A DNA stretch of 54,669 bases from Bacteroidota bacterium (lineage in GTDB: Bacteria; Bacteroidota; Bacteroidia; B-17B0; Aurantibacillaceae): positions 1-54,669 of the forward strand of contig JAUXZS010000039.1 of NCBI GenBank assembly GCA_030692515.1. Reading direction: 5' to 3'. A model generated the notes under the pieces. It worked only from the letters and a program-made list of their open reading frames with translations, did no database searches and had not been told where the DNA came from. This document shows positions 37,451 through 42,575 of the stretch, in pieces. A program made the translations under genes and the position numbers. Numbering within the stretch: the stretch's first letter is position 1; each line of letters opens with the position of its first letter.

Positions 37451-37714
37451 ATTTTAGTTTAAAGTATGAAGTTAGTATTTTGTTTGAAATTAAAAAACCC
37501 ATTCCGTTAAAACCAAATTTAGGTATTACTCAACCGCTTTATGAATGTATTCTTAATCACGTTTGGCTTTAAATAAAAGCTCCATTTATAGAATAAAATT
37601 AACCAGTTATATAAGTGATTATTGCCTTGAAGAAAATGTTGACTACTTTCATTATTAATTAACTGATTGGATATTTGGTTAATGCCTGACGTTAACAATT
37701 TAAAAATAATAAAA

Positions 37715-39739
37715 ATGAAAAAAACATTTACCTTTTTAAGTTTAGTCTTTTTTGGATTTTCGCTATCGGCTCAAATGCCCATACGCACTTCGTTATACGA
37801 AGAGTTTACGGGCGAAAATTGTGGGCCTTGCCTGTCAACAAATTGGACACTAGATTCAATATTGTTAAATAACTCATCACTTGTTATTCCCATTAAATGG
37901 CAGGTGCCCCTTCTAACTGCTCCAACAAATACATGGTCTATTTACCAAACCAATAAAGCAGAAATTAATTGGAGATACCGCTCATCTACGGGAAGCACTT
38001 TAACAGCAGGACCAAGCACCCTTGCTTACGGTTATCCGTCACAAAATACTGCGACTAATGTTGCCACCAATGGAATTAATTTACTTGCAAGTGGCAGACT
38101 TGATGGGCAACATCAGTGGGCTTTTGGAGCAACATCAGATGACCCAGTTGACATAAATAATTTAGTTATTTTGAGTGCCCAAAGTCAAACCACTAATTTT
38201 AGGGTAGATATGACACCAAGCTGGAGCCCTACGTTTACAAATTGTGTGGTAAGCGTTACTGTTTCATCAGCGACATCTTTCACTTCAATGGGTGCTTTAA
38301 TGTTTCGCTTATGTCTTGTTGAGCGTTTAATAAGTTTCCCTACGCCCCCTGGTATTAACGGCGAAAAGGTTTTTCGCGAAGCTGTTCGACAGTCTTATCC
38401 TACTACAATTGTAAATTCTTCGGTAACATCTATGGGAACTCCATTAAATAATATTTGGATAGCAGGTCAAACTCAAACATTTACATTAAGTTGCGATATT
38501 CCGTCATCTATTCGCGACCTTAGTGAAATGGCGTTTGTGGGATTTGTTCAAGATGATGGTGACAGATTAGTTTATCAAGCAGCAAGAACGGCTCAGCCTG
38601 CCGTACCAAATGATATTAAAGCTTTAGCGTTAAATATTCCTTTAAGTTGCACTAGCGCTTTTACACCTTCTTTAATTGTTCAAAATCTTGGTCAATCTGC
38701 AATAACCACACTCACAATTGCTCCTTATATTGATGGGCTTTCACAGCCACCAATAAACTACACAGTAAATATTGTAGGCGGAGCAATCGATACAATTGCA
38801 CTACCAACTTATACCGCATTATATGGAAGCCATACTTTTTCAGCAACAATAACAAATGTGGGTGGCGGAGATTTAAATCCAATAAATAATACAAAGAGGG
38901 TTGTTTTTGGTATTAGTAGCAGCACTTTACCAGGGGTAGCCGAACCTTTTTCTTCTTTCCCTCCAGCAAAATGGTACAATCTTAATTATAATTTCACACC
39001 TGGCACATGGGTTTTTGGCGGACCGAGTGGATTTGGAGTTGGTGTTGGGAGTGCAAAATATGATTTCTGGAATAATTACGAGTGGGGCGATTATGATGAT
39101 CTTTTTATGCCGGCATTAAATTTATCTTCTGTTTCAAATGTTGTTCTTTCTTTTGATGTTGCATATGCTCAATATACTGATCAGAGCGATAAACTTGATG
39201 TATTTGTGTCCAATGATTGTGGAGCGAGCTGGACAAATGTTTTTGCAAAAAATGGCGCACTTTTAGCCACAGCGCCTTCTTATTCAGTAGGCCCTTTTGT
39301 TCCTAATGCAACTCAATGGAGAAAAGAAGTTATTAATTTACCAGCTCAAGCAAATCAACCTTTAGTTTTATTAAAGTTTAGAGCAACAGCTGATTATGGT
39401 AATAACTTATATATTGATAGTGTTAAAATTGGCAATCCTATACCTACTAATACCAACTCAATAACAGAAAATAATAAAAGTGAAATTACGTGCGAATTAT
39501 ATCCTAACCCAACTTCTGGCTTTACTAATCTTTCAATAAGTTTAATAGAGATTGAAACTGCAGATATTACAATTATTAATAGTATTGGACAACTAGTTTA
39601 TTCTTTAAAAAATAATAAACTAGATGCTGGAGTTAACATTATTAGATTAAATACTGAAAGTTTTTCCTCGGGAGTTTATTTTATAAATGTGTCAACAACC
39701 AAAGGTTTTGTTAACACTAAACTAAGTATTACAAAATAA
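37715..39739 (+). CDS. Omp28-like T9SS protein with choice-of-anchor J
   Basis: The start is placed at ATG 37715 (MKKTFTFLSLVFFGFSLSAQ), a clean signal peptide; an upstream ATG at 37667 adds 16 unlikely residues. The N-terminal region resembles Omp28-type thioredoxin-like domains, with LYEEFTGENCGPCLSTNW holding a CxxC, and EMAFVGFVQDDGDRLVYQAA. A choice-of-anchor J-like beta domain follows (about 420-600; EPFSSFPPAKW, YDFWNNYEWGDYDDL, WTNVFAKNG). It ends in a type A sorting domain (CELYPNPTSGFTNLSISL, SSGVYFINVSTTKG). A disulphide-related or adhesive surface role is possible; neither is shown. Confidence 0.85.
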   Translation: MKKTFTFLSLVFFGFSLSAQMPIRTSLYEEFTGENCGPCLSTNWTLDSILLNNSSLVIPIKWQVPLLTAPTNTWSIYQTNKAEINWRYRSSTGSTLTAGPSTLAYGYPSQNTATNVATNGINLLASGRLDGQHQWAFGATSDDPVDINNLVILSAQSQTTNFRVDMTPSWSPTFTNCVVSVTVSSATSFTSMGALMFRLCLVERLISFPTPPGINGEKVFREAVRQSYPTTIVNSSVTSMGTPLNNIWIAGQTQTFTLSCDIPSSIRDLSEMAFVGFVQDDGDRLVYQAARTAQPAVPNDIKALALNIPLSCTSAFTPSLIVQNLGQSAITTLTIAPYIDGLSQPPINYTVNIVGGAIDTIALPTYTALYGSHTFSATITNVGGGDLNPINNTKRVVFGISSSTLPGVAEPFSSFPPAKWYNLNYNFTPGTWVFGGPSGFGVGVGSAKYDFWNNYEWGDYDDLFMPALNLSSVSNVVLSFDVAYAQYTDQSDKLDVFVSNDCGASWTNVFAKNGALLATAPSYSVGPFVPNATQWRKEVINLPAQANQPLVLLKFRATADYGNNLYIDSVKIGNPIPTNTNSITENNKSEITCELYPNPTSGFTNLSISLIEIETADITIINSIGQLVYSLKNNKLDAGVNIIRLNTESFSSGVYFINVSTTKGFVNTKLSITK

Positions 39740-39854
39740 AAGCCCTTATTATTTAGTGCTAACATAAAATAATTAGTCAACCCTCAAAAAGTCAATTTAG
39801 AAAATAAATTTTATTGGCGCACAGTTTTTCAACGTAATGTTATTTTGATTTTTT

Positions 39855-40114
39855 GCAGAGATAGTTGCTGTCTAAACTCTGCGGTTAGTTGAATCGGCAT
39901 GCAGACAAGAGTTTAGACAGACAATGGTTTTATTTTGGCTGCCTCTACATCGCCAAAATAGGGCAATGCATAGCATTGAGCCAGCATGAGCGCCGCAGCC
40001 AAATGTAATCAATCCTTCCACACAATCCAGCTCAAATATTTACTAAATATTTGCCCTGAGCGCCAAAAGTGACAAAAAAATACCGAAAATTTAAGACGTT
40101 GTAAATATTTTCGG
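39855..40114. repeat. Compound inverted-repeat element
   Basis: Perfect stems are: CTGTCTAAACTCT (39868-39880) with AGAGTTTAGACAG (39908-39920); GCAGAG (39855-39860) with CTCTGC (39877-39882), which competes with the first; ATTTTGGC (39932-39939) with GCCAAAAT (39952-39959), competing with TTTGGCTGC (39934-39942) and GCAGCCAAA (39995-40003); CAATGC/GCATTG (39964-39978); GCTCA/TGAGC (40030-40061); and CCGAAAAT/ATTTTCGG (40083-40114). TGAGCGCC occurs twice, 70 bp apart. It may be a mobile repeat or a structured RNA. Confidence 0.6.
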
Positions 40115-40236
40115 CAGATATTTATCCCGTAATTTAAAGTTTAAATCAATAAAGATAAGAGTTACAGAGAATTTGATGTTCGACTAATTAGTTATATCAA
40201 AAGCGACGTGTATTTATTGAGCTATAGCACTTAAAC

Positions 40237-40274
40237 AAAAAATCCATTCAAGTTAACCTGAATGGATTTTTTAT
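40237..40274. terminator. Bidirectional terminator
   Basis: AAAAAATCCATTCA (40237-40250) pairs with TGAATGGATTTTTT (40259-40272) around an 8-nt loop. It lies 15 nt past the stop of the M43 protease gene (minus) and can also end read-through from the left. Confidence 0.88.
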
Positions 40275-40289
40275 TTAAAATTTAATTTT

Positions 40290-42575
40290 CTAATGTGTTA
40301 TTATAATTTTCTTTAAAACTTTTTCGTTTCCATTTGATACTTCTATAAAATAAATACCATCAGGTCTATTACTCATATCTATATTTATTAGATTATTAGT
40401 CACGTTTTCTAATTTATCTGATGATATTAATTGTCCAAGTGTATTAATGATTCTAACATTTACATTTTCTTGTTTAGGTAAAGTAAAAATTAAACTAAAC
40501 TGCCCATTACTTGGATTTGGCATTACAGTTACGTTAGAGTTAAATGTAGATACATTTTCTTGGATTCCAACAACAGAGCGGCAAGTAATTTGTGGTAAAA
40601 TAGCTAATTGAACTTTAGCATTTTTGTTATATCGTAAGGTTCTCCAATTATTACTAAATTGTAATACCCAGCTGCTAGAGTCATTACTGATATTAGTTTT
40701 TGTGTTGCTAAAAATTTGAATTGAATCAGATAATGAACCATAAGGAGTTTGAACTGAACAAAAGAATCCAGAACTTGGAATTTGAATTGGAACCGCAAAA
40801 TCAAATCTAAAAGGAATAATTTTTGTAGTTGTAAAGGTATAATTGGGAGTACCACAATATTTTATTGTTACAGTTTTATTGGTGCTAGCAGCAATTTTCC
40901 CTAAACTATCTCCTTTTGAAGTTATTAAAGAGTTGGGTCCTGAACCCACAGTTCCTCCATATACTTTACAGAAAATTTGTGTGCCCTGTGTTGAAGGTGT
41001 AGCTTTAGTTCCAAGACTATCAAATAAAACTATCACACTATTAACTTGTGGAATTGGGGTGTCACTATAAGTCGATGAAGGATAATACTGGGCAAACTCT
41101 TTGTCTTTATAACAATTTGTTCCCGTTAAAAAACCTGCATATCCAGATTGGCAACCTAATATTAAACTGTTGTTAGGTGCTAAATAAGTTGTTAATGTAT
41201 CAACATTTTGAATCATTTTTAAAGTATCTAAACAAACTGCAGGTTTAGGACAAGTTAAAAGAGGACCAAGTACCATTTGAGTAGTAGAAACGTTTACAGA
41301 GTTTGTTGCCGTTAAATACAAAGTATAGGTTGTTAAATTCCCAAAGGTAATAGCTGGAGCTGCAACATTTGCGTTTGGAGCAAAAGTAACAGATGTTGGT
41401 GAAGCACTCCATGCGTATGTTGGAGATGGACCGCCTGTTGAAGAATTATAAGGAGTTATAGGTTGTCCAACGCAGGGATTGTTAATATCAAATTGTGCAA
41501 CAGCGGGGCCCGGATTAGGAGGGTTTACAGAACATAAGCCATGTGTTCCTAATAAATTACGGTAGGTTCCTTGACTCATTGCCGTTAACATTCGAGTTTT
41601 TTGATCGTTTGTAAACATATACATGCAAGGATCATCAGAGTAATCCATGAAATTCATAGTCATTTCGCCATTTGGACTTGTTCCTGCACCACACTGGTTA
41701 GTACCAAATGGATGAGTTTTGCAACCAAAATTGGATGTTTTTGCAGTTGGCGTATCGTTACAGAAATCTGTTAAACAATTTCCATCGCCCCAGGTATGAC
41801 GTAAACCTAACCAATGACCAAGTTCGTGAGTTGTTGTGCGGCCATATTGATATGGTGCTGAGGCAGCTGCTGAACCAATACTTCCAAAATAATTATGTCC
41901 CATTACAACGCCATCGTTAGTGTTCGAACCTCCTCCAGTAACACCCGGTAAAGTTGTACCTAAAGGAAAAGTTGCATAACCTAATAAACCGTTTTGTAAT
42001 TTAAGTACCCACATATTGCAATATTTTGTAGGGTCCCATATAGTAGCTGGTTTAATAGTATTATTAATAGTTGCTGTTGGGAAACCGCCTGCCGGTACTG
42101 ATGTAATGCCTGTAATTGAGGTTGCTAAAACTCTGTCAATTCCAGGTTCAGGCATAGTGCCAGCCGTTGGGTCGGTAACCGCTAAGCAAAACGAAATTCC
42201 CGAATTTGCAATTACAGGTTGAAAAACCGCAGGGCAATTGGTCACAAAAGTGCCAGTACCTGCAAAGTCTGCATTTAAAATATTAATTTGATCTACAACC
42301 TGCGCTTGGGAAATATTGTCGCCAACACCTACGGCACCACCGGCATGAATAATGTGAACCACAACGGGGATTGTATAATTTGGTAGTTGCATTTTATTGG
42401 CAACGAGATAATCTTTGTATTCTGCAACTTTTTTATTAAACCATTCATCCCATTGTTGAGATGGAATTTCTGTACCGCAAGTACGTTGTGGCGGAACGCC
42501 TGTTTTTTCATTTTGTGCGATTAAACAAGTAAAACTTAAAAACGCAAAAGTTGTAATAAATAGTTTTTTAATCAT
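40290..42575 (-). CDS. Secreted M43-family zinc metalloprotease (T9SS)
   Basis: The 761-residue protein has a signal peptide (FAFLSFTCLIAQ). It carries a pappalysin-type M43 peptidase domain (about 60-345) with the zinc motif H250-E251-x-x-H254-x-x-G-x-x-H260 (THELGHWLGLRH) and a Met-turn in MNFMDYSDDP. A PKD-like domain (about 350-445; VAQFDINNPCVGQPITPYNS) is followed by a ~220-residue module (CLDTLKMIQNVDTLTTY, GFLTGTNCYKDKEFAQYYP) and a type A sorting domain (VMPNPSNGQFSLIFTLPKQE). Residues about 446-761 are closely matched by the gene at 48701-49975. It probably degrades extracellular protein or matures surface proteins. Confidence 0.92.
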   Translation of the reverse strand: MIKKLFITTFAFLSFTCLIAQNEKTGVPPQRTCGTEIPSQQWDEWFNKKVAEYKDYLVANKMQLPNYTIPVVVHIIHAGGAVGVGDNISQAQVVDQINILNADFAGTGTFVTNCPAVFQPVIANSGISFCLAVTDPTAGTMPEPGIDRVLATSITGITSVPAGGFPTATINNTIKPATIWDPTKYCNMWVLKLQNGLLGYATFPLGTTLPGVTGGGSNTNDGVVMGHNYFGSIGSAAASAPYQYGRTTTHELGHWLGLRHTWGDGNCLTDFCNDTPTAKTSNFGCKTHPFGTNQCGAGTSPNGEMTMNFMDYSDDPCMYMFTNDQKTRMLTAMSQGTYRNLLGTHGLCSVNPPNPGPAVAQFDINNPCVGQPITPYNSSTGGPSPTYAWSASPTSVTFAPNANVAAPAITFGNLTTYTLYLTATNSVNVSTTQMVLGPLLTCPKPAVCLDTLKMIQNVDTLTTYLAPNNSLILGCQSGYAGFLTGTNCYKDKEFAQYYPSSTYSDTPIPQVNSVIVLFDSLGTKATPSTQGTQIFCKVYGGTVGSGPNSLITSKGDSLGKIAASTNKTVTIKYCGTPNYTFTTTKIIPFRFDFAVPIQIPSSGFFCSVQTPYGSLSDSIQIFSNTKTNISNDSSSWVLQFSNNWRTLRYNKNAKVQLAILPQITCRSVVGIQENVSTFNSNVTVMPNPSNGQFSLIFTLPKQENVNVRIINTLGQLISSDKLENVTNNLINIDMSNRPDGIYFIEVSNGNEKVLKKIIITH

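Follow-up and report, generated by a model that had tools for sequence, protein, structure and literature searches.

A dispersed, probably MITE-like mosaic repeat with a covarying, RNA-like core in the intergenic DNA of a Bacteroidota bacterium

Described small repeats and the locus studied

Bacterial MITEs and other small mobile repeats are short, non-coding, intergenic and present in multiple copies, and they have terminal inverted repeats and carry diverse motifs (excerpts of PMC2229807 and PMC2759123). The repeat described in this study shares these properties, being short and non-coding, with terminal inverted repeats (TIRs) in one of its forms only; the ends of this TIR form resemble those of IS630-type elements of related genomes. 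It differs from MITEs in having a multi-helix core of 178 nt, which covaries strongly across families of the class and occurs both with and without TIRs.

REP, REPIN and BIME elements with RAYT are extragenic palindromes that are combined into mosaics and fold in a strand-dependent manner (PMC6006769, in the portion available), and these features are also shared. REP sequences are 20–40 bp in size (PMC3733652, in extract), whereas the core is several times longer and flanked no Y1 gene at the 33 loci fetched from 78 Y1 matches. The same portion of PMC6006769 reports that Y1 genes of subclass 2.6 in Bacteroidetes have "atypical secondary structures" on their flanks, with further copies at other places in the genome; these structures may or may not be related to the core.

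In the msr-msd RNA of retrons, the two ends are complementary, the 5′ strand of this pairing has TAGC on its inner side, and hairpin arms lie within (PMC6868368, partial text). Complementary ends, TAGC and hairpin arms are likewise found in the core. Unlike a retron, the core has no adjacent reverse transcriptase (none in the same cassette at 22 loci), its G of TAGC is paired in the model, an extra hairpin is present on the 3′ side, and up to 20 copies are dispersed in one genome.

The window, which is the whole stretch of 54,669 nt of DNA that was analysed, comes from a Bacteroidota bacterium and contains a gap of 550 bp between two converging ORFs, 37667–39739 on the plus strand and 40290–42575 on the minus strand. 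An earlier note, made from the sequence of the window, had pointed out a gene-free block of this size and a number of short pairing sequences in it; the gap was borne out, and the sequences lie within a few bases of where the note had put them. With a probability of about 0.7, we interpret the block as a chimeric copy of a non-autonomous, dispersed, non-coding, MITE-like mosaic repeat with a selected plus-strand fold, for which we infer a mobiliser and a function as described below. The features of the family suggest a small mobile element that has not been catalogued and whose core is structured like an RNA; they do not suggest a switch, and no description of the repeat was found among the titles and abstract openings of the literature searched.

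The repeat family, its ends and its folded core

The genome carrying the window (4.33 Mb, 68 contigs) was searched by BLAST with the gap sequence, and 34 matches were obtained. They were counted as 22 family places, 10 of which were split in two, plus 2 matches to a hairpin at 40231–40289. Positions 39770–40190 of the window, including the flanking TA, were identified from this search and from alignment as one of the 22 places of a dispersed non-coding repeat, with the core strand being the plus strand; the other copies in the same genome are 74–98% identical to it. Full copies open with ATTAGTC and close with GACTAAT as inverted repeats. In the window copy, the left TIR (ATTAGTCAACC) is at 39772–39782 on the plus strand and the right TIR (reverse complement ATTAGTCGAAC) is at 40178–40188 on the minus strand, giving a length of 417 bp from TIR to TIR. 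A mini copy from which the core is deleted retains both ends (L027/L050).

Both ends were recognised in 11 of the 20 copies scanned in the genome carrying the window. Of these 11, 8 have TA beyond the left end, 10 have it beyond the right end and 7 have it on both sides; such a TA may stem from duplication of the target or may form the final two bases of the inverted repeat itself, and the 7 of 11 is compatible with TA duplication without proving it. Among 102 copies scanned in other genomes, three had recognisable ends on both sides, one each in genomes G012, G017 and G035, and a control with reversed motifs gave 0 of 122. In G019, G021, G007 and G051, the core lies within longer mosaics without the TIRs. 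Because the TIRs are so rare in other genomes and absent from these mosaics, they are not a general property of the core. Two sites in G019 compared with relatives showed large gap differences and no clean empty site, and one copy from the genome carrying the window (L008) shares its gene neighbourhood with a G017 copy (L189) at a different position.

The core, approximately 178 nt in length, consists of a closing helix (P1-P2), two junction arms (P3 and P4) and a 3′ hairpin (P5). This P1–P5 fold was obtained by running RNAalifold on 15 intact copies from the genome carrying the window, in which 15 of the 61 pairs had changed on both sides. Covariance model R1 was built first and a second model, R2, later. 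Alignment A3 comprised 64 hits from 63 of 88 loci, with insert loci, some near-duplicates and late spurious hits excluded by eye. These 64 intact copies represent 15 genomes; pairing was seen in 92.8% of their 3760 cells, compared with 45–49% when the partners were slid by one to three columns; changes on both sides were seen in 53 of the 61 pairs, and double-change cells numbered 454 against a shuffled mean of 113. Alignment A4 had 30 rows, of which 27 came from genomes and 9 from families (f11, f36, f44 and f54) outside A3; two rows (L103) repeat copies already used in A3, and a weak hit (L211:9581, E 9e-4) probably arose by chance. The results for this second set were similar, with 92.5% of cells paired, 51 of 61 pairs changed on both sides, and 362 double-change cells versus 110 after shuffling, both alignments having been fitted to the covariance model.

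The most constant letters are found at the junction (AG..ATAG, GcGgTtT and AAAAT.tCCT). G-U cells (190) exceeded A-C cells (43), which favours the plus strand as the folded one, with the asymmetry between strands possibly inflated by a model that accepts G-U. Judging from the alignments, the fold is maintained by paired changes while the letters drift; gene conversion between copies could mimic selection. Rfam 15 returned no family at the gathering score for the window or for a set of 11 loci containing diverse copies, and a permissive Rfam search of the gap gave 18 matches, all below gathering, with a best E of 0.033. A fold of 178 nt that covaries strongly, reaches up to 20 copies in one genome, is shared by several families of the class and has no match in Rfam can now be annotated and tested.

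The window copy retains only part of this fold. On the plus strand, the 5′ strand of P1 (TTTTGATTTTTTG) is at 39843–39855 and that of P2 (GAGAT) at 39858–39862, and the 3′ partners of both, ATCTC in the case of P2, have been lost. A conserved TAG at 39862–39864 is made up of the last base of the P2 5′ strand and the next two bases. P3 is formed by plus-strand positions 39864–39880 (5′ strand) and 39908–39925 (3′ strand), and P4 by 39928–39939 (TTTTATTTTGGC) and 39952–39960, the latter strand being shortened by an insert. From 39961 to 40056, alignments with intact siblings revealed a foreign palindromic, REP-doublet-like segment; it stands where intact copies have the last part of P4, both 3′ strands of the closing helix P1-P2, and the 5′ half of P5. 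The surviving 3′ half of P5 (CAAAAGTGAC) follows at 40064–40073, and the right arm of the TIR-bounded form, common to the full copies in the same genome, occupies 40074–40177, both on the plus strand. A right arm of similar length is present in G017 copies. The replacement is identical in copy L002 and related in L003 and L012, and similar segments break the core in other genomes (L118 in G003; L137 and L138 in G019). By comparison with its siblings, the window copy is a chimeric, degenerate copy, and since the inserted palindrome has cost it both 3′ strands of the closing helix as well as half of P5, it is probably unable to form the full fold.

Other repeats were observed next to copies of the family. 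A palindrome (CCCGATAGCTATCGGG) stands directly before P5 in L006, L008, L009 and L016 and in L116 and L119 of G003. A further repeat (CACCAAATCGCC...GCAGCCGCACTCTCCAAGACG) abuts the left end in L009, L011, L013 and L027 of the genome carrying the window and in the same two G003 loci (L116 and L119).

Distribution, mosaic arrangement and gene context

The search with R1 detected the core in 17 of 100 relatives, namely, 13 of 40 genomes of the genus (including the genome carrying the window), three other members of the family, and one genome from another family. With R2, hits came from 14 of the 395 class genomes searched, spread over 6 families, and from 4 of 395 genomes of the phylum. The distribution is patchy. 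Strict filters were used in these large searches, so that the counts are lower bounds and "core-negative" means no hit under such filters. The genome carrying the window has 20 covariance-model hits. A search with one exact pattern found the genus-type core in 15 loci, all labelled as MAGs of Bacteroidetes, Bacteroidota or Bacteroidia, including UBA2475, and gave no match in viral contigs. No match was found in phages, and matches in plasmids (4 records) were only 40–43 bp long and confined to the P5-like hairpin. Tandem copies 410–610 bp apart were seen in G051 and G080 and also in G384 and G403; in G404, a single-contig genome, three core hits lie within one 13-kb stretch. A tyrosine recombinase gene 1.25 kb from the G080 tandem copies was judged coincidental, and none was seen by eye at the other listed loci.

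Comparison of copies within the same genome showed that the homology mostly ends on the right no more than about 60 nt from P5. Exceptions are the TIR form in the genome carrying the window and in G017 (+117 to +125), G080 (+216 to +322), and some copies of G051, G021 and G035. On the left, homology ends at widely differing points, some near the core and the farthest at −467. Another structured module, with a stem that has AAGCGCTTCGCGAACAGCC as its cap, is present at most 500 nt upstream of the core in 6 of 8 copies of G019, 4 of 10 of G021, 3 of 6 of G007 and 8 of 10 of G051, and no scanned copy from any other genome has it there; the cap has 8 matches elsewhere in the genome carrying the window. 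The five G019 copies viewed have an inversely oriented P5-like hairpin at the far left. The intergenic DNA of these uncultured relatives contains families of structured, apparently mobile modules.

The module capped by AAGCGCTTCGCGAACAGCC (L132, about 430–640) also seems by eye to covary, and it is present with or without the core.

One locus is common to G019 (L132), G006 (L149) and G035 (L185); there the core has kept its position while its P3 and P4 differ by paired changes, which suggests selection in place; the upstream module of G019 gave no alignment in G006 or G035. Gene conversion or repeated insertion is a possible alternative at this locus because the most similar core belongs to another genome in 26 of 63 cases. 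In G006, another structured module was noticed where G019 has the core (contig C10, around 445500 and 448100; L307 and L315). It has a similar closing stem (TTGATTTTTT...AAAAAATCAA) and is perhaps a distant relative.

Neighbouring genes were counted for 118 of 122 copies, three duplicates and L118 being left out, and 35 copies had no gene call on one side. Among the 83 copies that could be placed, the neighbours were convergent in 32, both on the core strand in 31, both on the opposite strand in 13 and divergent in 7. The difference between 31 and 13 has a p of 0.0096 if copies are taken as independent, which tandem and orthologous copies are not fully. Copies tend to sit on the 3′ side of a gene in sense orientation, where they could be transcribed. 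No recurrent protein family was seen by eye beside the copies. The clusters of shared neighbouring ORFs that were viewed seemed, again by eye, to be conserved flanking genes, secretion-tail domains or the repeat itself read as ORFs.

The in-place core at the shared locus and the bias of 31 to 13 for the same strand would also be expected if the core were a host RNA family with a regulatory or structural role, resident in the genome and acting in trans or as a 3′ element, that had spread by duplication and recombination with no transposase. We regard this as unlikely, since the number of hits among congeners ranges from 0 to 20, copies in the genome carrying the window are up to 98% identical and have inverted ends, and the most similar core lies in another genome in the 26 of 63 cases mentioned. 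Under the reading as a MITE-like mosaic repeat, the core would be kept since RNA of its plus strand folds when transcribed by read-through or as part of a 3′ untranslated region, where it might stabilise, insulate or bind a partner; alternatively, the folded strand itself might be recognised by the spreading machinery. The question raised is whether a fold in a mobile repeat is selected by the moving machinery or by an RNA function in the host.

Candidate mobilisers and the proposed switch

Genes for IS630-type transposases (DDE_3) were found in 11 of 61 relatives and not in the genome carrying the window. Three of the 12 DDE_3 loci fetched contained a two-ORF element with ends reading TA-NN-TAGTCCAA on both sides, two in G035 (L228 and L237) and one in G014 (L231), the TA having the same spacing as at the ends of the repeat; one of the six ends reads TAATCCAA. 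The ends of the repeat, TA-AT-TAGTC(G/A)A, are similar and not identical to these, and the shared stretch is short, with the shared 8-base end motif having a frequency of 0.044 per kb and strand among background loci. Similar ends were absent from the other nine of the 12 DDE_3 loci, and G014 had no core hit despite its element with similar ends. Going by the end sequences, an IS630-type transposase is a plausible mobiliser of the TIR form, which would travel as a MITE-like passenger of such an enzyme acting in trans and now gone from the genome carrying the window.

The closing stem of the core, 18 bp long, unites both of its ends, and TAGC is at the inner end of this stem in 42 of the 64 rows of A3 and 26 of the 30 rows of A4. 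These features would be accounted for by an orphan retron-like element, in which the core would be an msr-msd-type RNA copied by a reverse transcriptase in trans, P1-P2 corresponding to the complementary ends, the G of TAGC to the priming guanosine, P3 to msr and P4 to msd. Such an origin, and the mapping with it, appear doubtful to us: the candidate G is paired at the base of P3 in the model, P4, at about 36 nt, is short, nothing in a retron corresponds to P5, and no core was found near a reverse transcriptase at any of the 22 RVT_1 loci, 10 of which were in core-bearing genomes. RVT_1 matches were present in 9 of the 24 genomes that bear the core and in 8 of the 19 others, and thus have no association with the core. 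A broader version, by which the core would be a new kind of mobile RNA, that is, an orphan msr-msd module that had spread to many intergenic sites in the class as a non-autonomous retroelement with its reverse transcriptase in trans, forming mosaics with other structured modules and the ends of DNA transposons, is equally hard to favour on present analysis. In G035, one core copy lies on contig C37 at 5 kb from a reverse transcriptase gene, with other genes between. This gene (L304:791-1934) encodes a VTG motif and is next to a helix-turn-helix gene; from its motifs, we take it to be retron-like.

Strand-specific folding, mosaic arrangement and extragenic location are also what a REP/REPIN-type element would have if moved as single-stranded DNA by a Y1 transposase (RAYT/TnpA), and the remark on atypical structures at subclass 2.6 genes in the available portion of PMC6006769 lends itself to such a reading. 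Transposases of this type gave 78 matches in 43 genomes, and 33 of these were fetched as loci, 21 of them in core-bearing genomes; no core was found beside Y1 at the 33 loci, where the best E was 0.68. Y1 presence did not separate core-bearing genomes (20 of 24) from the others (14 of 19). Four core-bearing genomes, G006, G016, G384 and G404, had no Y1 match, and the single-contig G404 had no RVT_1 match either. Two Y1 genes of the genome carrying the window adjoin other palindromes. On all these results, we consider movement of the core by Y1 improbable. The palindromes beside these genes (CCCGTAGGGACG... at L031, contig C58, and CCCGTTCGCGCGG... at L033, contig C54) apparently represent REP systems that are unrelated to the core.

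The earlier note had described mutually exclusive hairpins at 39841–40120 with a perfect stem of 13 bp, and the stem is indeed rare: one of at least 13 bp occurred in 1 of 1000 dinucleotide shuffles of this region and in 5 of 389 contig windows of 280 nt. Its strands are CTGTCTAAACTCT (39868–39880) and AGAGTTTAGACAG (39908–39920). Folding energy was modest on the plus strand (z −1.9, with 6 of 200 shuffles equally good) and z was −3.1 on the minus strand (1 of 200 equally good); by itself, it would not convince us of a fold in the window. Both the long stem and the TTTTGGC/GCCAAAA stem are kept among the copies with compensatory changes. The competing pairings can be drawn in the window copy, where GCAGAG (39855–39860) is able to pair with CTCTGC (39877–39882), and TTTGGC (39934–39939) with GCCAAA at 39952–39957 or 39998–40003; GCCAAA is also present at 40062–40067. 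The repeated TGAGCGCC is present at 39987–39994, inside the insert, and at 40057–40064, at the right junction of the insert with the P5 remnant.

The alternatives, unlike the principal stems, are not conserved. Pairing of GCAGAG with CTCTGC is complete in 7 of the 64 aligned copies, 6 of which are among the 11 copies from the genome carrying the window, and 62% of its cells are paired across the 64; the second partner of TTTGGC, at 39998–40003, falls within the segment that replaces part of the core. For these reasons, the apparent switch is not a conserved feature, and the mutually exclusive layout is a product of recent descent plus an insert. A structural switch in the gap, either an attenuator or a riboswitch, can be set aside almost entirely, as the pairings drawn for it are those just described and the gap lies between converging genes. 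The note had also offered a choice between a structured RNA and a degenerate mobile repeat, and both descriptions apply at once, in the form of a repeat at 22 places with a covarying core. Homologues occur in the same genome and in relatives, so that the case of a sequence lacking any homologue does not hold, and a decayed coding sequence is not indicated, the longest stop-free stretch in the element being 55 codons and the base changes being paired.

Directly outside the right end of the element, at 40231–40289 and between the two converging genes, the window has a terminator-like inverted repeat, which matches itself when inverted.
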